Part shown: one piece after another, positions 1 through 13,794 of the stretch
Layout: each line of letters begins with the position of its first letter
Numbering within the stretch: the first letter of the stretch is position 1
Assembly: GCF_000021545.1 (NCBI RefSeq)
Contig: NC_012438.1
Span: 680,003 to 744,002 of the forward strand
Direction of reading: 5' to 3'
Length of the DNA: 64,000 nt
From: Sulfurihydrogenibium azorense Az-Fu1
GTDB taxonomy: Bacteria; Aquificota; Aquificia; Aquificales; Hydrogenothermaceae
Translations under genes and position numbers: made by a program
Notes under the pieces: generated by a model
What the model saw: the letters and a program-made list of their open reading frames with translations, nothing else
Told to the model about the DNA's origin: nothing
Database searches by the model: none

Positions 1-86
1 AGGGAGAGAATGTGCTACCTAAAAGACCTATAGAGTATGCAGAAGAGATAGGAGAGAACATTTGGCGGGCACTAAAAAAGGATTGA
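1..86 (+). CDS. 3' end of an unidentified upstream gene (partial)
   Basis: The third reading frame is open from the window edge to a TGA at 84-86 and encodes about 27 residues ending in RALKKD. It overlaps the TTG start of the hydrogenase small-subunit gene by 25 bases, which suggests both belong to one operon with coupled translation. In related clusters an electron-transfer protein often precedes this hydrogenase, but the visible tail has no recognisable motif, so no function is assigned. Confidence 0.5.
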   Translation, partial: GENVLPKRPIEYAEEIGENIWRALKKD

Positions 87-1000
87 AAAATCTTGTATGG
101 ATACAAGGGCTTACTTGTAATGGAAACTCACATTCTTTTTTGTCTATAAACGATACAATGTTAGATGTGTTTTTAAGTAATATCAATATTCTTTATCATC
201 CTATGCTTACCTCAGAAATGGAGTTTAAAGATGTATATAAACTATTACTTTCCGGAAAAGAAAGTTTGAATTTTTTAGTAGTTGAAGGTGCAGTCAACAC
301 TAAAAAGGATGAAGTATTTTTCCAAGGGTTTGATGTATTTGAGATTTTAAATAATTTAAAAGATAAGTCAGATTACATTCTGGCAGTTGGAAACTGTGCT
401 TGTTATGGAAATTTTCCTGCTTTATATAACGAAAACGTAAAAGGTTTACAGTATAGATTTAAAGATAAAGGAGGTTTTTTAGGAGAGGATTTTAAAACAA
501 AATCTGGATATCCAATTATAAATATAACAGGTTGTCCAGCTCATCCTGAATGGATAGTAAGGACTATCTTAAGTCTTAATTTTGGATACGATATTAAACT
601 TGACAACCTTAACAGACCTAAAGATTTTTACATGTACTTAGCTCATGATGGATGTATTAGAAATGAGTATTTTGAATGGAAAGTTGAAGCTCATGAGTTT
701 GGGACAAAAGAAGGATGTTTATTTTACGAGTTAGGATGTAGGGGACCTTTAACACACTCTCCATGTAATAAAATACTTTGGAATGAAAAATCTTCAAAAA
801 CAAGAAGTGGTATGCCGTGTATCGGTTGCACAGAGTTTGATTTTCCCCTACGTTCAAAATACTTTGAAACAAAGACCAACATAGGTATTCCTGAAGAAGT
901 TCCACTGGGTGTAACAAAAAGAGCCTATATAATGTTATCAGGTGTTGCAAAAACATTCACAAATCAACGGTTAAATAAAAAGTTAGAAGATACTGATTAA
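62..1000 (+). CDS. [NiFe] hydrogenase small subunit, group-2-like, cytoplasmic
   Basis: Iron-sulfur subunit that carries electrons from the NiFe site of the large subunit encoded next. The proximal-cluster motif near the N-terminus is WIQGLTCNGNSHSF, a CxGN form as in cyanobacterial HupS. Further ligands appear in GNCACYG, TGCPAHPE, HDGC, the two Cys of the GCLFYELGCRGP segment, SPC and PCIGC, so the distal and medial clusters look complete. There is no Tat signal and no membrane anchor, so a soluble cytoplasmic enzyme is expected. At 312 residues it matches HupS-type subunits. The start is TTG at 62, preceded by GGAGAG at 51-56; no better ATG lies nearby. The gene overlaps the preceding frame and is one base from the large-subunit gene. 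Group assignment is inferred from motif style only. Confidence 0.88.
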   Translation: MAGTKKGLKNLVWIQGLTCNGNSHSFLSINDTMLDVFLSNINILYHPMLTSEMEFKDVYKLLLSGKESLNFLVVEGAVNTKKDEVFFQGFDVFEILNNLKDKSDYILAVGNCACYGNFPALYNENVKGLQYRFKDKGGFLGEDFKTKSGYPIINITGCPAHPEWIVRTILSLNFGYDIKLDNLNRPKDFYMYLAHDGCIRNEYFEWKVEAHEFGTKEGCLFYELGCRGPLTHSPCNKILWNEKSSKTRSGMPCIGCTEFDFPLRSKYFETKTNIGIPEEVPLGVTKRAYIMLSGVAKTFTNQRLNKKLEDTD

Positions 1001-2418: not shown

Positions 2419-2661
2419 ATGTGTTTATCAATTCCATCAAGAGTGGAGGAGATTTTCCCAGACGAAACAGCTATAGTAGATACAATGGGAGTAAAAAGAA
2501 AAGTATCTCTCCACCTTCTCCCTGAACCTGTTGATGTTGGCGATTATGTTCTTATCCATGTTGGATATGCTATAACTAAGATGAATGAAGAAGATGCTTT
2601 AGAGAGTTTAAAGATATACGAAGAGATTGTAAAACATCTGGAAGAAGAATCAGGTGAATGA
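2419..2661 (+). CDS. hypC: Hydrogenase maturation chaperone HypC
   Basis: Small chaperone that works with HypD to assemble the Fe(CN)2CO group and deliver it to the large subunit. The family hallmark MCLSIPS with the essential Cys2 is at the N-terminus, followed by the small beta-barrel and GDYVLIHVGYAI. The length of 80 residues is normal. GAGG lies at 2407-2410, upstream of the ATG. It is the first gene of hypCDEA and its stop overlaps the hypD start (ATGA). Confidence 0.95.
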   Translation: MCLSIPSRVEEIFPDETAIVDTMGVKRKVSLHLLPEPVDVGDYVLIHVGYAITKMNEEDALESLKIYEEIVKHLEEESGE

Positions 2662-3779
2662 TGGGAAAAGTAGATTTTTTAAAGGATTTTAGGGATAAAG
2701 AAAAGATTCTTGCAATTTCGAAACTGATAAAGAAAGAAATAGATAGACCTATTAATGTAATGGAAGTTTGTGGCGGTCATACACACACTATTATGAAGTA
2801 TGGTTTAAAACAGCTTCTTCCCCAAGAGATAGATTTTATACATGGTCCAGGATGTCCTGTCTGTATAATGCCTAAGGAAAGAATAGACCATGGGATAGTT
2901 TTATGTCAAGATGAAAAAAATATACTTGTTACACTTGGAGATATGATAAGAGTTCCTGGTTCAGAGAGTTCTCTCGCAAAAGAGAGGTCAAAGGGTAAGA
3001 ACGTAAAAATGGTATACTCTCCACTTGATGTTTTAAAAATAGCTCAGGAGAACCCGAATAAAAAAGTGATATACTTTGCAATAGGATTTGAAACAACTAC
3101 TCCTATGACTGCATCTGTAATAGAGAAAGTTTTAGAGAGTAAGATGAAAAATGTGTTTTTCCATATAAACCATGTTTTAGTGCCACCTCCTATAAAAGCA
3201 ATCATGGAAAGTAAGGAAGCGAAAATAGATGCATTTATAGGACCTTCTCACGTTTCGGTTATTACTGGAGCCAAAATATACAAAGATATAGTTGATTCTT
3301 ACAAAACACCTGTGGTTGTAGCCGGATTTGAACCGGTTGACGTTATGGAGAGTATTTTGAGAATAGTTAGACAGTTTAAGGAAGGCAGAAGAGAAGTTGA
3401 GATACAGTACACCAGAGCTGTTACCTGGGAGGGAAACGTAAAAGCTCAAAATTTAATAAAAAAGTATTTTGAAGTCAGAGATGAGTTTCGATGGAGGGGT
3501 ATAGGAGATATTCCATTCTCAGCTTTAAAGATAAAAGAAGAGTTTTCTTTCTTAGATGCAGAAGTTGTATTTAAAGATATTCTTCCAAATAAACCTATAG
3601 ACGATCATAAATTGTGTATATGTGGAGACATTCTTAAAGGTATTGCAAAGCCTTATGATTGCAAGGTTTTTGGGAAAGCTTGTAAACCGGAAAACCCTTT
3701 AGGTTCGTGTATGGTATCGTCAGAAGGTGCATGTGCTGCTTACTATAAATATGGAAATCTGGAGGTTTACAAACAATGA
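2658..3779 (+). CDS. hypD: Hydrogenase maturation protein HypD
   Basis: Iron-sulfur scaffold on which, with HypC and HypE, the Fe(CN)2CO unit is built. Family motifs are all present: EVCGGHTHTI, HGPGCPVC, the GFETTTP loop, the GPSHVSVI segment, and C-terminal cysteines in CICGDIL and the CMVSSEGACAAYY region that bind the 4Fe-4S cluster. The 373-residue length is typical. The ATG at 2658 overlaps the hypC stop; a second ATG at 2661 is equally possible. The 3' end overlaps hypE by four bases, so translation of hypC-D-E is likely coupled. Confidence 0.96.
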   Translation: MMGKVDFLKDFRDKEKILAISKLIKKEIDRPINVMEVCGGHTHTIMKYGLKQLLPQEIDFIHGPGCPVCIMPKERIDHGIVLCQDEKNILVTLGDMIRVPGSESSLAKERSKGKNVKMVYSPLDVLKIAQENPNKKVIYFAIGFETTTPMTASVIEKVLESKMKNVFFHINHVLVPPPIKAIMESKEAKIDAFIGPSHVSVITGAKIYKDIVDSYKTPVVVAGFEPVDVMESILRIVRQFKEGRREVEIQYTRAVTWEGNVKAQNLIKKYFEVRDEFRWRGIGDIPFSALKIKEEFSFLDAEVVFKDILPNKPIDDHKLCICGDILKGIAKPYDCKVFGKACKPENPLGSCMVSSEGACAAYYKYGNLEVYKQ

Positions 3780-4774
3780 AACAGATTATGTTGGCACATG
3801 GTGGAGGTGGAGAAGAAACTCAAAAACTGATAAAGGAGCTGTTTTTTAAGTACTTTAACAACGAAATTCTTTTAAGTATGGAAGATTCTGCTGTGTTAAA
3901 TATAAATTCAAAAGTTGCATTTACAACTGACTCTTTTACTATCTCTCCAATATTCTTTAGTGGTGGAGATATTGGAAAGTTGGCAATAGCAGGAACTGTA
4001 AACGACCTTTCTGTGATGGGAGCAAAACCTTTGTATTTAAGCTGTAGTTTTATTATAGAGGAAGGTTTTCCTTTTGAGGATTTAGAAAAGATAGTTAAAT
4101 CTATGGCAGAAGAGTTAAAAAAAACAGGTACTTTGATAGTGACAGGGGACACAAAAGTAGTTCCAAGAGGTTTTGTTGATAAGATTTTTATAAATACATC
4201 TGGATTAGGAAAAGTAGTTTACGAAGGAGTATCTGCTCATAACTTGTCAGAAGGAGATAGTATAATCGTATCTGGAACTGTTGGAGATCATGGGGTTTGT
4301 ATTATGGCTCAAAGGGAAGGTATAGATATGCAAACAGACCTGATTTCAGATTGTGATTCTGTTTGGACTTTGGTAGAAGATCTAATAAAGGGGAATGTAA
4401 AAATAAAGGCTATGAGAGATCCAACCAGAGGTGGACTGTCTGCTGTTTTAAATGAATGGGCTGAAAGCTCAAATGTGGAAATAGAAGTTTTAGAAGAAAA
4501 AATACCTGTTAAACCACAAGTTCAAGGACTATGTGAGTTGTTGGGCTTAGAGCCGTATGTTTTAGCAAACGAGGGAAGGATAGTAGTGGCAGTATCAAAA
4601 GAAGATACGGAGAAAGCTTTGGAGATCCTAAGAAAAAATCCACTTGGAAAAGATGCACAACTTATAGGAAAAGTAAACTCAAAAGGGAAAAAAAGGGTTA
4701 TACTAAAAACCTCTTACGGTTCTTTAAGGATTATGGAACCACCAGCTGGGGAAATCTTACCAAGGATATGTTAA
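3776..4774 (+). CDS. hypE: Hydrogenase maturation protein HypE
   Basis: ATP-dependent dehydratase that converts the thiocarbamate on its C-terminal Cys, made by HypF, into thiocyanate, the source of the cyanide ligands. The N-terminal AHGGGGEET loop, the AIAGTVNDLSVMGA segment, the RDPTRGGLSAVLNEWA segment of the AIR-synthase fold and the terminal PRIC tail with the modified Cys are visible. Length is 332 residues, as usual. The start overlaps the hypD stop by four bases and hypA follows after one base. Confidence 0.96.
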   Translation: MKQIMLAHGGGGEETQKLIKELFFKYFNNEILLSMEDSAVLNINSKVAFTTDSFTISPIFFSGGDIGKLAIAGTVNDLSVMGAKPLYLSCSFIIEEGFPFEDLEKIVKSMAEELKKTGTLIVTGDTKVVPRGFVDKIFINTSGLGKVVYEGVSAHNLSEGDSIIVSGTVGDHGVCIMAQREGIDMQTDLISDCDSVWTLVEDLIKGNVKIKAMRDPTRGGLSAVLNEWAESSNVEIEVLEEKIPVKPQVQGLCELLGLEPYVLANEGRIVVAVSKEDTEKALEILRKNPLGKDAQLIGKVNSKGKKRVILKTSYGSLRIMEPPAGEILPRIC

Positions 4775-5290: not shown

Positions 5291-6541
5291 ATGGAGTTTT
5301 TTAGAAGAGATTTTTTAAGAGAGATGTTTACAAAACCAACAAACCTTATAAATACAAACAGAGGAAAAGAGTATTACGATCAACTTTACAAAAAAGCAGA
5401 GGAAAGGTTAAACTGGCTTAAATCACAAAAACCTGTAAGAGAGGACGATATAAAGTTTGATGAATACCTCTCAATGTGGGATATATCAAGGAGAGACTTT
5501 TTTAAATGGGTTTCCATGATGACGGCAACTTTAATGCTTCCACCGTCCTTCGAACCATTGGTTGCTCAAGCTGCAGAAGTTATGAATAGGGTTCCTGTTA
5601 TCTGGATAAACATTCAAGACTGTGATGGAAATACAGAAGCCCTTATAAGATCTTCTGCTCCTACAGTTGACGAACTAATATTAGATTACCTTTCTATAGA
5701 GTATCAAGAAACACTTATGGCTGCGGCAGGTGATCAAGCAGAAAAGTGTCTTGAAGATGCTGTAAAGACATTTAAGGGTCAGTATTTACTTTTTGTGGAA
5801 GGGTCAATTCCAGTAAAAATGGAGTATGCATTTACAACTGGAAGACATCCTGAAACAGGTGTTCAAAGAGTGAGAAGATTAGCTAAAGATGCTAAAGCTG
5901 TTATAGCCGTTGGTGCGTGTGCCTCTTTTGGAGGAGTTCCAGCTGCCTATCCTAACCCTACTGGAGCAGTGGGAGTGATGGATGTTGTTAGTGGTGTTCC
6001 TGTTGTAAATATACCAGCTTGTCCGGCAAATCCGGTAAACATTGTTGGAGTTATTATGCATTACGTTCTTACAGGTTCATTACCTGAACTTGATTCACTA
6101 AAGAGACCTAAATTCGCTTTTGGATACAGAATTCACGATAATTGTGAAAGAAGAGCCCACTTTGATGCTGGGGAGTTTGTTGAAGAATGGGGGGATGAAG
6201 GTGCAAAGAATAATTTCTGTTTATATAAGATGGGATGTAAAGGACCTTTTACTTTTAATAACTGTTCTATAGTTAGATATAACGATGGAACTAACTGGCC
6301 TATTGGGGTTGGTAGAGGTTGTATAGGTTGTTCAGAACCAGACTTTTGGGATAAATACGCTACAGAAAGACCTGTTGCTGCAAGTGATATAAGACCTCCT
6401 GCCATTGGTGGAGTTGAATCTACAGTAGATAAGGTAGGATTAACAATTTTAACGGCTACAGCCATTGGAATAGGTGCACATGCTGTTATGAGTGCCTTAG
6501 CAGGAAAAAAAGAAACAATAACTTCAAACAAGGAGGAGTAA
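5291..6541 (+). CDS. [NiFe] hydrogenase small subunit, group 1, Tat-exported
   Basis: Electron-transfer subunit of a membrane-bound uptake hydrogenase facing the periplasm. The twin-arginine motif SRRDFF sits at residues 66-71, unusually far in, behind about 65 hydrophilic residues. A second RR motif, FRRDFL, is at residues 4-9 but has no hydrophobic stretch after it. The proximal-cluster segment WINIQDCDGNTEALIRS has CDGN at 111-114, with Asn where other group 1 enzymes have Cys. GACASFGG, PACPANP, HDNC, FCLYKMGC, NNC and GCIGC supply the other ligands. A hydrophobic C-terminal helix (GLTILTATAIGIGAHAV) would anchor it to the membrane. Length 416 residues, long because of the N-terminal extension. 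The Shine-Dalgarno is GGGGG at 5279-5283. Confidence 0.93.
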   Translation: MEFFRRDFLREMFTKPTNLINTNRGKEYYDQLYKKAEERLNWLKSQKPVREDDIKFDEYLSMWDISRRDFFKWVSMMTATLMLPPSFEPLVAQAAEVMNRVPVIWINIQDCDGNTEALIRSSAPTVDELILDYLSIEYQETLMAAAGDQAEKCLEDAVKTFKGQYLLFVEGSIPVKMEYAFTTGRHPETGVQRVRRLAKDAKAVIAVGACASFGGVPAAYPNPTGAVGVMDVVSGVPVVNIPACPANPVNIVGVIMHYVLTGSLPELDSLKRPKFAFGYRIHDNCERRAHFDAGEFVEEWGDEGAKNNFCLYKMGCKGPFTFNNCSIVRYNDGTNWPIGVGRGCIGCSEPDFWDKYATERPVAASDIRPPAIGGVESTVDKVGLTILTATAIGIGAHAVMSALAGKKETITSNKEE

Positions 6542-6542
6542 G

Positions 6543-8279
6543 ATGTCTAAAAGATTAGTAGTAGACCCAATTACAAGGATTGAAGGACATCTTAGAATAG
6601 AAGTAGTTTTAGATGAAAATAATAGAGTTGTAGATGCTTACAGCTCTTCAACTATGTGGAGAGGAATAGAAACGATTCTCAAAGGTAGAGATGCAAGAGA
6701 TTGTGGACTTATAGCTATGAGAATATGTGGTGTTTGTACAGGTGCACATTACTGGACAAGTATAAAAGCTGTTGAACACGCATTAGGTATAACTCCTCCA
6801 ACAAATGCAAGATTGGTTAGGAATCTAATAGCAGGTTCACTATATCTTCACGATCACGTTGTTCATTTTTATCATTTACATGCCCTTGATTGGGTAGATA
6901 TCGTTTCAGCTTTAAAAGCAGACCCTTACAAAGCAGCAAAAGAGGCAGAAAATTACTCGGAAAATCCTTGGTACAACTCACCAACTCAGTATAAAGCTAT
7001 ACAGGAAAGACTTAAAAAGTTTGTAGAATCTGGAAGATTAGGACCTTTTGCAAATGCCTACTGGGGAAACAAATCATACAAGTTCACTCCTGAACAGAAC
7101 CTGATAGCAACTGCACACTATCTTGAAGCTTTGGAAGCTCAAAGATGGATGGCTCAAATGATGGCGATATATGGTGGTAAAAACCCTCATCCACAATCAA
7201 TAGTGGTAGGTGGTGTAACGTGTGTTCAAGATATTAAAAACCCTGCAAGAGCATCGTTATTTAAAGAACTACTTTTAAAATCAAGAGACTTTGTTTTGAG
7301 AGCTTATATACCTGATATTATAATGGCTGGTCAAGTTTACAAAGATGAGGCTTTAAACGGTGTAGGAGCTGGTCTTGGAAACTACCTTGTTTATGGAGAT
7401 TTTCCGTTAGACGATAATCCGCACTATAAGGCTAAGCTTCTATTTTCACCAGGAGTTGTAGTCAATAAGGATTTAACAAAAGTTATTCCTTTCGATCAAT
7501 CTAAGATTACAGAAGATGTCACCCACAGTTGGTACAAGTATGAAAATACAGACAAACCATTACATCCTTTTGATGGCCAAACAAATCCTAATTATACAGG
7601 GTTTGATGAAAATGGTTTATTAAAAGTTAATGAAAAGTATTCCTGGATAAAATCTCCTATATACGATGATATAAGAGTAGAGGTTGGACCACTTGCAAGA
7701 ATGATTGTTGGATACGCATCAGGAAATGAGAGAATTAAAAACTATGTAGATAAAGCTTTAAAAGCTGCTGGATTACCTCTTCAAGCACTCTTTTCAACGG
7801 TAGGAAGAACCGCTGCCCGAGCTATAGAAACATGGATGATATCCGATGTAATGATAGAATGGATAGATCAGCTTGCATCTAATTCTGCAAAGGGAAATCT
7901 TGATACATGGACAAAGTTTGATTATGACAAATTAACGAAAGGGAAAGAGTTGAAAGGTTATGGATTATCAGAGGCTCCAAGAGGTGCGTTGGGACACTGG
8001 GTTAGAATTGTCGATGGAAAAGTTGCAAACTATCAGGCAGTTGTACCTTCTACTTGGAATGCAGGACCAAGAGATTACAAAGGAAGAATGGGTGCTTACG
8101 AAAGCTCTTTAGTTTCAAATATAACGCTTTCTAACCCGGATCAGCCATTAGAAATATTGAGAACAGTACACTCATTTGACCCTTGTATAGCATGTGCTGT
8201 GCACGTAATAGATACAAAGGGTAGAGAAATTGCACAGTATAAAATAGATCCAGTGTCTGGAGGTATGTGTTATGTCTGA
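6543..8279 (+). CDS. [NiFe] hydrogenase large subunit, group 1
   Basis: Catalytic NiFe subunit of the membrane-bound hydrogenase. RIEGH and RICGVCTGAH mark the N-terminal half and DPCIACAVH the C-terminal half. The last motif His is followed by 24 residues beginning VIDTKGRE, the extension expected to be removed by the maturation protease encoded at 9039. Length of 578 residues is normal for group 1. A strong AAGGAGGAG site precedes the ATG. The gene begins one base after the small-subunit stop and its 3' end overlaps the cytochrome b gene by eight bases. Confidence 0.96.
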   Translation: MSKRLVVDPITRIEGHLRIEVVLDENNRVVDAYSSSTMWRGIETILKGRDARDCGLIAMRICGVCTGAHYWTSIKAVEHALGITPPTNARLVRNLIAGSLYLHDHVVHFYHLHALDWVDIVSALKADPYKAAKEAENYSENPWYNSPTQYKAIQERLKKFVESGRLGPFANAYWGNKSYKFTPEQNLIATAHYLEALEAQRWMAQMMAIYGGKNPHPQSIVVGGVTCVQDIKNPARASLFKELLLKSRDFVLRAYIPDIIMAGQVYKDEALNGVGAGLGNYLVYGDFPLDDNPHYKAKLLFSPGVVVNKDLTKVIPFDQSKITEDVTHSWYKYENTDKPLHPFDGQTNPNYTGFDENGLLKVNEKYSWIKSPIYDDIRVEVGPLARMIVGYASGNERIKNYVDKALKAAGLPLQALFSTVGRTAARAIETWMISDVMIEWIDQLASNSAKGNLDTWTKFDYDKLTKGKELKGYGLSEAPRGALGHWVRIVDGKVANYQAVVPSTWNAGPRDYKGRMGAYESSLVSNITLSNPDQPLEILRTVHSFDPCIACAVHVIDTKGREIAQYKIDPVSGGMCYV

Positions 8280-8973
8280 AAAAATTGTTCCTGTAAAAAG
8301 AATGACTGTTACAATGAGAATAATACACTGGACTAATGTTTTTTGTATTATTACAGCTGTAATAACAGGTCTTTACATAGCCAATCCTTACTATCAGGCT
8401 TTAATATCAGAACCAGCAGCTTATAAATTTGTTATGGCTTATAACAGATTTTTTCATTTTATGGCCGCTCTTTTATTGGATATTGTTTCTATAGTTATAG
8501 CATACCTATATTTTAGAAGTAACTTTGAAAGGTATGCTTATAAGTTAATACCAAATAGGCAAAATATTAACGAATTTAAAGAAGTTTTCCTAAATCTCAT
8601 AACTCTAAACAGAAGAAAAAATTTTGATAGCTCTCATGCTGATAGCTTTAATGTTGTTTGGTTTACAGTTTTACATCTAATGTTAGTGTTAATGTTATTT
8701 ACAGGATTTCAGATGTACGTTGCTGGTTTAGAAAGTGGTCTTTCTTCTATAGGTAGTTGGTGGCCATGGCTTCTTCACATTGCAACTGATTGGACTTTAT
8801 GGGTATTTGGGGGACTTGCCGGAGTTAGATTGGTTCACCATTTTACAATGTATTTAATCCTTGCTTGGGTAATGTTCCATATCTACTATCAGATTTGGAG
8901 AACTATATTCTGGAAAGAAGGAGATATTGCTATAGTTTTTGGCGGTTATAAATTTAAGAGAGTTAAGGAGTAG
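8272..8973 (+). CDS. Hydrogenase b-type cytochrome subunit
   Basis: Membrane diheme cytochrome b that passes electrons from the small subunit to the quinone pool. About four hydrophobic helices are visible. Candidate heme ligands are His residues in RIIHWTN, FFHFMAA, LLHIATDW and RLVHHFTMY. Length of 233 residues fits the HyaC/HupC family. It overlaps the large-subunit gene by eight bases, supporting coupled expression, and a strong hairpin follows its stop. Confidence 0.92.
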   Translation: MSEKIVPVKRMTVTMRIIHWTNVFCIITAVITGLYIANPYYQALISEPAAYKFVMAYNRFFHFMAALLLDIVSIVIAYLYFRSNFERYAYKLIPNRQNINEFKEVFLNLITLNRRKNFDSSHADSFNVVWFTVLHLMLVLMLFTGFQMYVAGLESGLSSIGSWWPWLLHIATDWTLWVFGGLAGVRLVHHFTMYLILAWVMFHIYYQIWRTIFWKEGDIAIVFGGYKFKRVKE

Positions 8974-8983
8974 AAATACATAG

Positions 8984-9028
8984 AAAGGAAAGTAAGGCTT
9001 ATTAATGGCCTACTTTCCTTTTATTTTT
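8984..9028 (+). terminator. Hairpin terminator after the hydrogenase structural genes
   Basis: AAAGGAAAGTA (8984-8994) pairs perfectly with TACTTTCCTTT (9011-9021); GGC and GCC extend the stem inside, with one bulged A. A T-rich run follows. It probably sets a lower level for the downstream maturation genes, which may be reached by readthrough. Confidence 0.75.
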
Positions 9029-9038
9029 GAGGTAAATC

Positions 9039-9581
9039 ATGAAGATAGCAGTTTTAGGAGTAGGAAACATACTTTTTAAAGATGAAGGTTTTGGTGTTTT
9101 TGCCGTTAAATATCTGCAACAGAATTACAAGTTCGATCCTGAAATACAATTGATAGATGGAGGAACAGGAGGTTTTAAACTTATTGAGTACTTTCAAGAT
9201 TACGATTATGTGATTTTACTTGATGTTATCTCTGTTAACGATAAAGCAGGATCTATCTATAGGATAGAAGGAGAAAACCTTGCAAGTCTATCGTCCTATC
9301 ATCAAACAGCCCACGAGGTTGAAGTACTTCAAATGATAGATCTTGCAGCATTAGGAGGTAAATCTGCAAAAGTAGTTGTTTTAGGTATAGTTCCAGAAGA
9401 TATAACAAAAACAGAAATAGGATTAACTTCATCTTTAGAAAAAGTGTTTGAGTCTTTCATAAACCTTGTTCTTAAAGAAATTGACAGTCTTGGAGTTAAG
9501 TATGAAAAAATAAACAGTAAATCCCTTCAAGATGTTGTTATTGATTTTATAGGATCATATAACGACGTAAGGAGTTTTTAA
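9039..9581 (+). CDS. Hydrogenase maturation protease (HyaD/HupD type)
   Basis: Nickel-dependent endopeptidase that removes the C-terminal extension of the large subunit after NiFe insertion. The metal-binding residues of the family are visible: Glu in GVGNILFKDEGFG, Asp in LLDVI, and His in SYHQTAHEV. Length of 180 residues is normal. Only one such protease is encoded here, in line with only one of the two large subunits having an extension. It directly abuts the HypF-like gene. GAGG at 9029-9032 serves as ribosome binding site. Confidence 0.92.
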   Translation: MKIAVLGVGNILFKDEGFGVFAVKYLQQNYKFDPEIQLIDGGTGGFKLIEYFQDYDYVILLDVISVNDKAGSIYRIEGENLASLSSYHQTAHEVEVLQMIDLAALGGKSAKVVVLGIVPEDITKTEIGLTSSLEKVFESFINLVLKEIDSLGVKYEKINSKSLQDVVIDFIGSYNDVRSF

Positions 9582-11558
9582 ATGGATGAAATTACCTTAG
9601 AGATTAAAATACCATACCCACATCAAAACGATATATTTTTACCTTTAATAAAAAGAATTGGAGAGAAGGAAGGTATAAAGGGCTATGTTGAAAGAACTTT
9701 GGAAGGAATAAAGATTGTAATATCTTCAAATGAAGATAAAGTAAAAACATTTATGGAAGTGTTAGGTTCAAAACTTCCCGTATCTTTTTTTATGAGTGAT
9801 GCATCTGTTGAAATTTCAGAAGAAGAAATTACAAATGAAGATTTCTTTATTAAAAATGAAACTTTGAATATACTGCCAGTAAATTACGGTCTTTGTCCAT
9901 CTTGCACTCAGGAGCTTCTAAATCCAAATAGTAAAAGATACCTGTACCCTTTTATATCTTGTAGTTTTTGTGGCTTTCAGTACAGTTACCTCTTTTATTA
10001 TCCCTTTGATAGAAAAAATACGATTTTTAAATACTTCCAAATGTGTGATAATTGTCAACAAGAGTATGATTCTAAATTTAGTTTTAGATACAAGTACCCT
10101 TTAACATCTTGTTACGAATGTTTTATACCTGTATCATTCTATGAGGACAATGAAGAAGTATTATCTTTAAATCCCCAATCAAACTTGAATATACTTCTAA
10201 AGGTCGCAGAATACATAGAAAACGGTAAAGATATCTTATTAAAAACTTTGAATGGCTATAAATCAATTAGTAAACATTTTCAACCAAATTCTTACATCTT
10301 AATAACAAATCCGGAAAAGATAAGTGATATTGCATACCTTTCTAACAAAGAAGTGAGATTACTTGCTTCAATAGAAAAGCCTTCAGTAAAACTTCAGCTT
10401 AAGGAAGAATTTTCTAAGAAAGAGAATATTAATTTAAACTTTTGGTACCTTAAATTTCCCGATGATCCTCTCATTGTGTCATTAAGTAATTTTTTAAAGA
10501 AAAAAGGGATAGATTATGTTTTTGTAAACGATGAAAGTCATTCTCATGAAAATTGTAGAATAGATTTTGATATAAAAATAGAAAATCCCCAAAAAGAACT
10601 CAAAGTAGCCATTGTTCAAGGTAAAACTTTAGTCTTAGAAGGAGAAAAAGGATTATTTCCTTGTATTTTGAAGATAGATAAAGATGTGGAAAAAACAGTT
10701 AAATATAAAGGTTTGGGCTGTACAAAAGTAGGTAAAAATGAGTACCTTATAGATAAAGTAGATAAAATTCAAAATCTAGAAGAAAAAGATGAAATAAAAG
10801 GTCTGGATAAGTATGATCCTTATAAACTTGCTATAATGTCTGTTATAGCAGAACATAACCTTTTTGATGAGAAAGCTGTTTGTATATATCTTTCAAAAAG
10901 ATTTGAAAGTGTAATAGCAGTAAAAAAAACAGATATAAAACCTCTTATAAAAGTACTTCCTTTAAGATCATCAGAAAATGAAGACCTAACTGTATCTTTA
11001 GTTTTATCCGAAATATCAAATCTATTACCAGAGTATGATAGATTAGTAAAAAGATATGCAGAAAAGTTTAAAATTAACTTAGAAAAAAACTATTTAAATG
11101 AATATTTAGAACTTTCTTATGGTCTTGAACCTATCTTTAACATTATAGGAAAGATCCTTAATATAGGTAACTTGGATACGATAGAAAGCAATGCTTTAGA
11201 TTTTAAAATTTCAAGAGGGCTTATGGTAGATTTTGTAATTAGAGAAGATAAGGGGTCTTTCTATATAGACTGGCAAAAGGCATTGGCTAGTTTAATGTCT
11301 TATAGATTAGCAGGAGATAACGAAAAAATAATCTCTTTTTCAATGATAGAAAGTTTTTCAGAATTTATAGAAAATCAAGTAAGTAAGATATCTACTAAGT
11401 TTAACACCAATAATGTAGTTATTACAGGAGACTTCTTAAGTAATACAGTTTTGACAGGTAGAATTTTAAAACACCTTAGTAGATACAATGTATTTACAAA
11501 TACATTGCTTCCTGTTAGTCATGAAAATTTTGTTTTAGGTGGAATGTTTATTGATTAA
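9582..11558 (+). CDS. HypF-like protein with degenerate active sites
   Basis: This 658-residue protein follows the domain plan of HypF, encoded right after it. Four CxxC pairs at residues 105, 127, 155 and 177 have spacings of 22, 28 and 22, the same as in the neighbouring HypF, and the segment around KRYLYPFISCSFC mirrors its RRYMYPFINCTNC. The acylphosphatase loop (VQGVGFRPF in HypF) is replaced by HQNDIFLP, so the catalytic Arg is gone, and the catalytic Asn region reads GYVERTLEG. In the C-terminal domain the HHYAH metal motif is not kept; SGGVFQN becomes TGDFLSN and NDGGISLG becomes HENFVLGG. The family relation is my reading of the sequence. A structural or partner role in HypF function is only an inference. 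It abuts the protease gene and overlaps hypF. Confidence 0.7.
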   Translation: MDEITLEIKIPYPHQNDIFLPLIKRIGEKEGIKGYVERTLEGIKIVISSNEDKVKTFMEVLGSKLPVSFFMSDASVEISEEEITNEDFFIKNETLNILPVNYGLCPSCTQELLNPNSKRYLYPFISCSFCGFQYSYLFYYPFDRKNTIFKYFQMCDNCQQEYDSKFSFRYKYPLTSCYECFIPVSFYEDNEEVLSLNPQSNLNILLKVAEYIENGKDILLKTLNGYKSISKHFQPNSYILITNPEKISDIAYLSNKEVRLLASIEKPSVKLQLKEEFSKKENINLNFWYLKFPDDPLIVSLSNFLKKKGIDYVFVNDESHSHENCRIDFDIKIENPQKELKVAIVQGKTLVLEGEKGLFPCILKIDKDVEKTVKYKGLGCTKVGKNEYLIDKVDKIQNLEEKDEIKGLDKYDPYKLAIMSVIAEHNLFDEKAVCIYLSKRFESVIAVKKTDIKPLIKVLPLRSSENEDLTVSLVLSEISNLLPEYDRLVKRYAEKFKINLEKNYLNEYLELSYGLEPIFNIIGKILNIGNLDTIESNALDFKISRGLMVDFVIREDKGSFYIDWQKALASLMSYRLAGDNEKIISFSMIESFSEFIENQVSKISTKFNTNNVVITGDFLSNTVLTGRILKHLSRYNVFTNTLLPVSHENFVLGGMFID

Positions 11559-13794
11559 GAGGGCTGTTATAAAACTTACTGGAGCTGTTCAAGGAGTAGG
11601 TTTTAGACCTTTTGTTTACAACTTGGCTAAAAGGTATGGATTAAGGGGGTTTATACTGAATGACGGTAAAGGTGTAATTATTGAGGTAGAAGGAGAGGAA
11701 AAGGTTATAAAAGATTTTATTCTCTCTATACATAATGAAAAACCAAGACTTGCCAACATATTCTCCCAATCTGTAGAATTTTTTGAAGAATTAAAAAATT
11801 ACGAAAACTTTAAAATTTTAGAAAGTAATTCTAATACTGAAAAAAACGTTTTTATACTTCCAGATATATCCACGTGTGATGAATGTTTAAGAGAATTGTA
11901 CGACCCATCAGATAGAAGATACATGTATCCTTTTATAAACTGTACAAACTGTGGTCCCAGATTTTCAATTATAGAAAAGCTCCCTTATGATAGAGAAAAC
12001 ACCACAATGAAAAAGTTTAAAATGTGTCCTGAATGTGAAAAAGAGTACACAGACCCATCAAATAGAAGGTTTCACGCTCAACCAAATGCCTGTCCTGTGT
12101 GCGGTCCTGAAATTTCCCTTTATACAAAGGATAAGCAACTTATAGCAAAGTCGTTAGAGGCTATAGAAATACTAAGAAGTTTAATCCTTGAAGGGAAAAT
12201 AGTTGCAGTTAAAGGTATAGGCGGATTCCATCTCGTGTGTGATGCTACAGATGACACAGCTGTCTCTACATTGAGAGAAAGAAAAAAAAGATTTGAAAAA
12301 CCATTTGCAGTAATGTTTAAAGATTTAGAAACTGTAAAAGTATACGGAGATCCTTCTAATTTTGATGAAATTTTAATAAATTCTGCAGAAAAACCGATAG
12401 TCTTAATAAAAAAGAAAGAAAATACTGATTTATCAGAGAAAGTTGCTCCTGGTATAGATAGAATAGGTGTTTTTTTACCTTACTCTCCCCTCCATCATCT
12501 ACTTTTAAAAATCGTAGGTAAGCCTCTTGTAATGACTTCTGCAAATCTTTCTGATGAACCTATTGTAAAAGATAACGAAGAAGCCTTTGAGAAACTTTCA
12601 GATTTTACGGACTACATTCTTATTCACAACAGAGAGATAAAAAACAGAGTAGATGATTCTGTAGTTTTTTCCGTTAAAGATAAAATGTTTTTTATACGTA
12701 GGAGTAGAGGATACGCACCCCTTCCAGTTAAATTGCCCTTTAGACTTAAAAATAAAGTTTTAGCAGTAGGAGGACACCAAAAAGTAACTATAGCCTTAGG
12801 AATAGATGATAAAGCCTATATATCCCAACATATAGGTGACTTAGAAACATTATCTTCTCAGCAAAATTTTGAAGAGGTTATAAGTAGATTCTTTGAGTTG
12901 TACGATTTTTTCCCCGGTGTTGTAGTGTCGGACTTACATCCTTTTTACTACTCGACAAAATGGGCAAAAGAATTTACATCTAAACACAATTTAAAGCTAC
13001 TACAAGTTCAACACCATTATGCCCATGCTTTATCTCTCATGGTTGATAACCATTTTCAAAATGGGAAAATACTTGCTATTTGTTGGGATGGGACAGGATA
13101 CGGGACTGATGGCAACCTCTGGGGAGGAGAGTTCTTGGTCTGTGATTACACAGGGTTTAATAGAGTATTTCATTTTGACTACTTCAAACTGTTAGGTGGA
13201 GAGATAGCAGTAAAAGAACCACGAAGAGTAGCACTATCAATCCTGTTTAAAATTTTTGGAAAAGATGCTTTAAGTTTAAAACTACCACCCTTAAAAGAAT
13301 TTTCTGAAAAACAGATAGAAAGCTTTTACACTATATGGGAAAAAGGATTAAAAAGCCCATTATCTTCCTCTGTTGGAAGACTTTTTGATGCTGTGGCATC
13401 ATTGTTAAATATACGCCAGACTTTGTCTTACGAAGGACAGACTGGTATGATAATGGAAAAGTTTTACGATTATACTGTAAAAGACCATTACTCATACGAA
13501 ATAGAGAACGGATTAATAAATTACGATAGTACTTTTGTAGATTTAATATACGACAAAAGTGAAGTACCTATAAAAGTTTCAAGATTTATAAATACACTTA
13601 TCAAGATTATTTTAGATGTTTCAAAAGAGTTTGACCTGCCAGTAGGATTTTCAGGGGGAGTTTTTCAAAATAAAGTTTTGTTAAATCTTTTGATGGAAGA
13701 AGATATTAAGAAGAAATTTCTCTATCATAAAAACGTACCTCCTAACGATGGAGGAATATCTTTAGGTCAAGTTATACATAATCAATTCTTATAA
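11551..13794 (+). CDS. hypF: Carbamoyltransferase HypF
   Basis: Makes carbamoyl-adenylate from carbamoyl phosphate and ATP and transfers the carbamoyl group to the C-terminal Cys of HypE, supplying the cyanide ligands. Domains in order: acylphosphatase (GAVQGVGFRPF), zinc fingers with four CxxC pairs, a YrdC-like domain (VKGIGGFHLVCDA, KRFEKPFAVMF, MTSANLSDEP) and a Kae1-like domain (HHYAHALS, CWDGTGYG, SGGVFQNKVL, NDGGISLGQ). I chose TTG at 11551, preceded by AGGTGGA at 11537-11543; a GTG at 11539 would add four codons but lacks a good site. It overlaps the HypF-like gene by eight bases and, tail to tail, the cvpA-like gene by thirteen. Confidence 0.95.
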   Translation: MIKRAVIKLTGAVQGVGFRPFVYNLAKRYGLRGFILNDGKGVIIEVEGEEKVIKDFILSIHNEKPRLANIFSQSVEFFEELKNYENFKILESNSNTEKNVFILPDISTCDECLRELYDPSDRRYMYPFINCTNCGPRFSIIEKLPYDRENTTMKKFKMCPECEKEYTDPSNRRFHAQPNACPVCGPEISLYTKDKQLIAKSLEAIEILRSLILEGKIVAVKGIGGFHLVCDATDDTAVSTLRERKKRFEKPFAVMFKDLETVKVYGDPSNFDEILINSAEKPIVLIKKKENTDLSEKVAPGIDRIGVFLPYSPLHHLLLKIVGKPLVMTSANLSDEPIVKDNEEAFEKLSDFTDYILIHNREIKNRVDDSVVFSVKDKMFFIRRSRGYAPLPVKLPFRLKNKVLAVGGHQKVTIALGIDDKAYISQHIGDLETLSSQQNFEEVISRFFELYDFFPGVVVSDLHPFYYSTKWAKEFTSKHNLKLLQVQHHYAHALSLMVDNHFQNGKILAICWDGTGYGTDGNLWGGEFLVCDYTGFNRVFHFDYFKLLGGEIAVKEPRRVALSILFKIFGKDALSLKLPPLKEFSEKQIESFYTIWEKGLKSPLSSSVGRLFDAVASLLNIRQTLSYEGQTGMIMEKFYDYTVKDHYSYEIENGLINYDSTFVDLIYDKSEVPIKVSRFINTLIKIILDVSKEFDLPVGFSGGVFQNKVLLNLLMEEDIKKKFLYHKNVPPNDGGISLGQVIHNQFL

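Follow-up and report, generated by a model that had tools for sequence, protein, structure and literature searches.

The present study identified FL, a 658-residue protein encoded in a 64,000-nucleotide stretch of the Sulfurihydrogenibium azorense Az-Fu1 genome (the window), as the most HypF-like branch of the protein family containing HydE, a family identity that is well supported. FL is probably (probability about 0.62) an old HypF paralogue that has lost all three HypF activities and become a dedicated accessory factor for one HyaABC/HydABC hydrogenase clade. The results are best read as a pseudo-HypF whose role in maturation is client-specific and directed at one clade of membrane-bound group 1 [NiFe] hydrogenases, at a molecular step that we infer. 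The FL gene adjoins the end of hyaD (9581), and its own end overlaps the start of hypF (GTG at 11539 or TTG at 11551), for which the TTG at 11551 is the likely choice. The features of the locus, in window coordinates, are as follows:

2419-2616, + strand: hypC (PF01455)
2658-3779, + strand: hypD (homology and gene order)
3776-4774, + strand: hypE (homology and gene order)
5291..6541, + strand: hyaA, Tat-type small subunit
5621..5632, + strand: HyaA residues 111-114, CDGN (usually CxGC), with Asn replacing the second proximal-cluster Cys
6543..8279, + strand: hyaB, group 1 [NiFe] large subunit and proposed client (PF00374; in the HyaB clade paired with FL/HydE)
8272..8973, + strand: hyaC, cytochrome b subunit (PF01292)
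8983..9022, + strand: terminator-like hairpin between hyaC and hyaD (dG -20.8, z -4.9)
9039..9581, + strand: hyaD, hydrogenase maturation protease (PF01750)
9582..11558, + strand: FL, HypF-derived pseudoenzyme of the HydE family, 658 aa, ATG start (sequence profiles, predicted fold)
11539..13794, + strand: hypF, intact carbamoyltransferase (TIGR00143, 841 bits)

The hairpin parts the structural from the accessory genes, which fits expression of FL together with the latter. Hairpins of unrelated sequence were also observed at the same hyaC/hyaD position in L034, L035, L036, L037, L047, and L048. A role of FL as a stand-in for a missing HypC was ruled out by the presence of hypC within the window. 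No HybE or HupH (HupH_C) family protein was found in this genome.

The profile search against HypF that the initial annotation had proposed matched FL over nearly its entire length (hhalign, E 5e-46, 654 columns), and BLASTP against the neighbouring HypF gave 25% identity (E 7e-28), while FL failed the TIGR00143 equivalog cut-off (137.6 vs 466.1 bits). In the Pfam search, matches above cut-off were obtained for Acylphosphatase, zf-HYPF, and HypF_C_2, and none for PF01300 (YrdC) or PF17788; the lack of a PF00374 match in Pfam indicates that FL is not a paralogue of the hydrogenase large subunit like HoxV/HupK. Four parts were delimited in the FL gene:

9591..9851, + strand: acylphosphatase-like domain without the catalytic Arg/Asn, about residues 4-90 (PF00708, 25.2 bits; R23>L, N41>R; strand/helix order in the model)
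9894..10121, + strand: double HypF zinc-finger module with four CxxC, residues 105-180 (PF07503; spacing 22/28/22)
10173..10676, + strand: shortened YrdC-like region without YrdC motifs (boundaries approximate, from the alignment)
11229..11519, + strand: Kae1-like second subdomain (HypF_C_2) with catalytic motifs lost, residues 550-646 (PF22521, 28.6 bits, cut-off 27)

As first read from the sequence, the CxxC pairs of FL (residues 105/108, 127/130, 155/158, and 177/180) follow one another in steps of 22, 28, and 22, identical to those of the neighbouring HypF (113/116, 135/138, 163/166, and 185/188). The YrdC-like region keeps LASxEKP (residues 261-267), which is near-universal across the family. 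The initial description of a full-length HypF paralogue holds for homology, which spans the whole protein in profile and fold, but FL is 93 residues shorter than HypF (658 vs 751 aa), residues being deleted from both the YrdC-like and the Kae1-like part. Likeness beyond the zinc fingers, which had been fixed beforehand as the decisive point, was found in the predicted structure. The AlphaFold2 model of FL (alignment n=13; pLDDT 88.9, pTM 0.88) gave whole-chain Foldseek matches to the HypF structures 3vth, 3vti, 4g9i, and 3tsp, for instance with E 2e-42 (3vth) and TM 0.77 (3vti), and its TM values against HypF structures (0.64-0.78, query-normalised) correspond to the overall HypF fold. The model of a 27% identical protein from Sulfurimonas indica also matches HypF over the whole chain, at lower confidence (pLDDT 78.7). 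In the HypF/FL tree, FL is set apart (100/100) on a long branch, owing to which the tree does not resolve its position among HypF sequences.

The loss of the catalytic motifs is extensive. Comparison of 21 FL members from Aquificota and Campylobacterota with 53 HypF sequences, at the columns conserved to at least 95% in the latter, revealed that the zinc-finger part kept 14 of 22 columns, including 8/8 Cys, and that the acylphosphatase (AcP), YrdC, and Kae1 parts together kept 5 of 69 (AcP 1/18, YrdC 2/21, and Kae1-like 2/30, with 4/51 for YrdC and Kae1). The motif alterations reported initially were confirmed (AcP R23>L and N41>R, HHYAH, GGVFQN, and NDGG), DGTGYG/WGGE is lost as well, and the losses are also present in the orthologues examined. 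Across 88 family members, no catalytic-residue constellation is conserved, nor does any group of conserved residues point to a particular binding partner; the near-universal positions (P66, S68, L261-S263-E265-P267 (LxSxEKP), D550, S570, S573, and G616) could be structural. Four CxxC pairs occur in 39 of the 88 and none in 27, and the zinc fingers of the FL/HydE family are eroded stepwise.

The initial annotation knew of no described function for such a protein, yet FL is no orphan: it has a homologue in HydE of Helicobacter and its relatives. In Helicobacter loci (H. pullorum, H. mesocricetorum, H. valdiviensis, and others), hydA-B-C-D is followed by a protein of 542-575 aa that matched FL at E 3e-12 to 6e-11, and the HydE and FL profiles aligned over 529 columns (hhalign, prob 100, E 5e-45). 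HydE also aligned with HypF directly (hhalign, prob 96, E 3e-9), and its profile alone retrieved HypF 3vth from the PDB at E 2e-11; Pfam and NCBIfam hold no HydE model, and HydE gives there only sub-threshold HypF matches. The species compared included H. pullorum and H. mesocricetorum, with H. pylori HydE tied to them by name and operon order. In Helicobacter and Wolinella, hydE is the last gene of the hydABCDE operon and occupies the slot matching that of FL. H. pylori HydE has been described as not fully understood (PMC5557546), and another account assigns it no function, reporting, after Benoit 2004, mutants without hydrogenase activity that nickel did not rescue and in which urease was normal (PMC7695850); this requirement is reported for H. 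pylori alone. A literature search found no statement tying HydE to HypF, and a 2025 review of [NiFe]-cofactor assembly does not mention HydE (PMC12134894). The window protein is still HypF-like enough to reveal the origin of HydE, and this origin gives concrete candidate partners, namely HypE, HypF, HypC/HypD, and pre-HyaB.

FL was detected in 21 of 136 Aquificia genomes, all belonging to the window's family, Hydrogenothermaceae. A HyaB of at least 70% identity occurred in 23 Aquificia genomes, again all Hydrogenothermaceae, of which 21 had FL and two were drafts (78% and 86% complete); FL was found in none of the Aquificia genomes without such a HyaB, including ones with hypF and HoxSL, and G069, G072, and G074, with a different group 1 HyaB (51-53% identity), had no FL. 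A role of FL for HoxSL is unsupported, G076 having HoxSL and hypF and no FL, and FL is apparently not shared by the two hydrogenases of the window, since its occurrence in the family goes with HyaAB and not with HoxSL. In the mapped Aquificia cases, FL follows hyaA-hyaB-hyaC-hyaD except in G080, where it stands alone (L038) about 145 kb from the hyaAB operon. Furthermore, a pattern-led survey covering about 85,000 species genomes uncovered FL in Sulfurimonas, within the same operon, and the order hyaABCD-hydE-hypF was present in 4 of 399 Pseudomonadota genomes. The Campylobacterota and Pseudomonadota members rule out a restriction of FL to Aquificota, and the range of the family comprises Hydrogenothermaceae, Campylobacterota, and some Pseudomonadota, with the gene after hyaA-hyaB-hyaC(-hyaD) and often directly before hypF. 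The place beside hypF, noted initially, is true here and common (direct adjacency in 48 mapped operons across phyla), but it is not constant; most Persephonella-type loci, for example, lack it. Nothing was found in 395 genomes from the phylum of a Desulfobulbaceae record, in a search run without a positive control.

In the operon neighbourhoods read, FL/HydE was present in 45/45 CxGN operons with hyaC and in 36/41 CTGC/CTCC operons with hyaC, counts that are not independent because the operons share ancestry. Three of the five CTGC/CTCC exceptions are Aquificota hydrogenases of another clade, and the Campylobacterota operons L245 and L247 have no adjacent hydE in the operon surroundings, the scope of that reading. 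Among CxGN operons without hyaC, none of four had an adjacent FL/HydE. Moreover, HyaB from FL/HydE-bearing operons forms one clade (100/100), each operon of a two-operon genome has its own FL/HydE copy, and FL/HydE sequences group by client type in their tree, with the copies of two-type genomes each falling among those of their own type. Extra CxGN-type hyaA-hyaB copies without hyaC and without FL were seen in L212, L217, L231, and L238, and in L238/L215 the ORFs give HyaA of about 810 aa and HyaB of 717 aa.

The small subunits of these operons are distinctive as well. In FL operons the HyaA motif is C-[DA]-G-N, against CxGC or CTCC in other group 1 small subunits, so that one proximal-cluster Cys is replaced by Asn. 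Within Hydrogenothermaceae every FL-linked HyaA has CxGN, as does a large Campylobacterota clade, and in the Hydrogenothermaceae sequences examined FL and CxGN coincide without exception. A requirement of FL for a CxGN small subunit was ruled out, since HydE accompanies CTGC clients, and CxGN stands as a trait of the FL branch. The HoxS-type small subunit of the window (62-1000) also reads CNGN.

Taken together, the presence of a separate copy for each hydrogenase, descent from HypF, the reported activity loss that nickel does not rescue, and the lack of HybE/HupH favour a client-specific maturation factor. The best guess for FL is a non-catalytic part in maturing hydrogenase, whereas the part in cyanide-ligand synthesis itself that was suggested initially is no more than a hypothesis. 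A HypF paralogue would have lost its three enzymatic activities and kept the HypF fold, with the zinc fingers kept in the FL branch; FL may then bind a subunit of the cognate hydrogenase while it is still immature and/or a Hyp partner normally touched by HypF, HypE being the first candidate, and would thereby direct or hold a maturation step before export, much like HoxV/HupK elsewhere. The HypF likeness suggests that an enzyme of cofactor synthesis has been repurposed as a factor specific to its client. A bolder version, speculative and rather unlikely, is that FL/HydE represents a new class of [NiFe]-cofactor scaffold that would occupy the HypF docking site on HypE, or take over the cyanated intermediate, and pass it on to one cognate hydrogenase, each hydrogenase having its own dead HypF, with the CxGN branch perhaps also serving the altered proximal FeS site.

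FL could instead act on a reused HypF fold in small-subunit chaperoning, Tat proofreading, or membrane assembly (the HyaE/HybE role), without contacting the Hyp machinery, which is conceivable although doubtful. The lack of HybE and HupH in the genome and the visibly different (CxGN) client small subunits agree with such a role, as do HyaC-less copies of the same hydrogenase type without adjacent FL (L212, the first operon of L215, L217, and L231), although the genomes with these copies also carry FL/HydE. HydD and HydE have further been described as acting in membrane localisation (PMC4992972), which fits a later assembly step and counts against a client-specific maturation factor of the kind preferred here. 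However, Aquificaceae HyaABC operons have a cytochrome b too, yet no FL, and the HypF origin and frequent hypF adjacency suggest a role on the cofactor side. That same adjacency, together with the gene overlap in the window and the common fold, would also suit a regulatory partner of HypF that tunes carbamoylation generally, through a mixed complex or by competition for HypE. Such a role is improbable: a general tuner should track hypF, whereas Hydrogenothermaceae genomes with hypF and HoxSL and without HyaAB have no FL, and two FL/HydE copies are matched to two hydrogenases in one genome.

The retention of zinc fingers and scaffold raises the question of an enzymatic or ligand-carrying activity other than that of HypF, for which the CO ligand, whose origin during anaerobic maturation is still unresolved (PMC12134894), would leave room, but fast sequence drift and the lack of a conserved catalytic constellation in the 88 members render it very unlikely. 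Finally, selection and conservation refute a decaying pseudogene or annotation artefact. Many motifs are lost, FL evolves fast (80% identity to its nearest relative vs 89% for hypF), and broken copies exist in L053, a poor draft, and in G307, where one of two copies (L202) is split into three ORFs. Nevertheless, the dN/dS against the nearest relative is low (0.139, vs 0.131 for hypF), indicating that the gene is maintained and upholding the earlier proposal of a retained pseudoenzyme, and the frame is intact in nearly all genomes, across three phyla and with conserved gene order. The second copy of G307 (L203) is intact.

Compared with known systems, FL resembles HypF (TIGR00143) in domain order, fold, and zinc-finger spacing and is its gene neighbour, but differs in having lost all catalytic motifs, in being 93 residues shorter, and in scoring far under the family cut-off. 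HydE of hydABCDE in Helicobacter and other Campylobacterota shares with FL the slot after hydD, full-length homology, and the type of client, whereas Helicobacter HydE is shorter (542-575 aa in the species compared), lacks the zinc fingers of which FL has all four CxxC, and serves the usual CTGC small subunit rather than CxGN; it is distinct from the radical-SAM HydE of [FeFe] hydrogenases. HyaE/HybE/HupH-type accessory proteins occupy a similar operon slot after the protease but are unrelated to FL. HoxV/HupK, itself dead, is a paralogue of the large subunit and carries Fe(CN)2CO for a single hydrogenase (PMC12134894, PMC3534401), whereas FL is a HypF paralogue, and no homology is claimed between them; the likeness is one of working, a dead paralogue from the hydrogenase system employed as an accessory scaffold for one hydrogenase.
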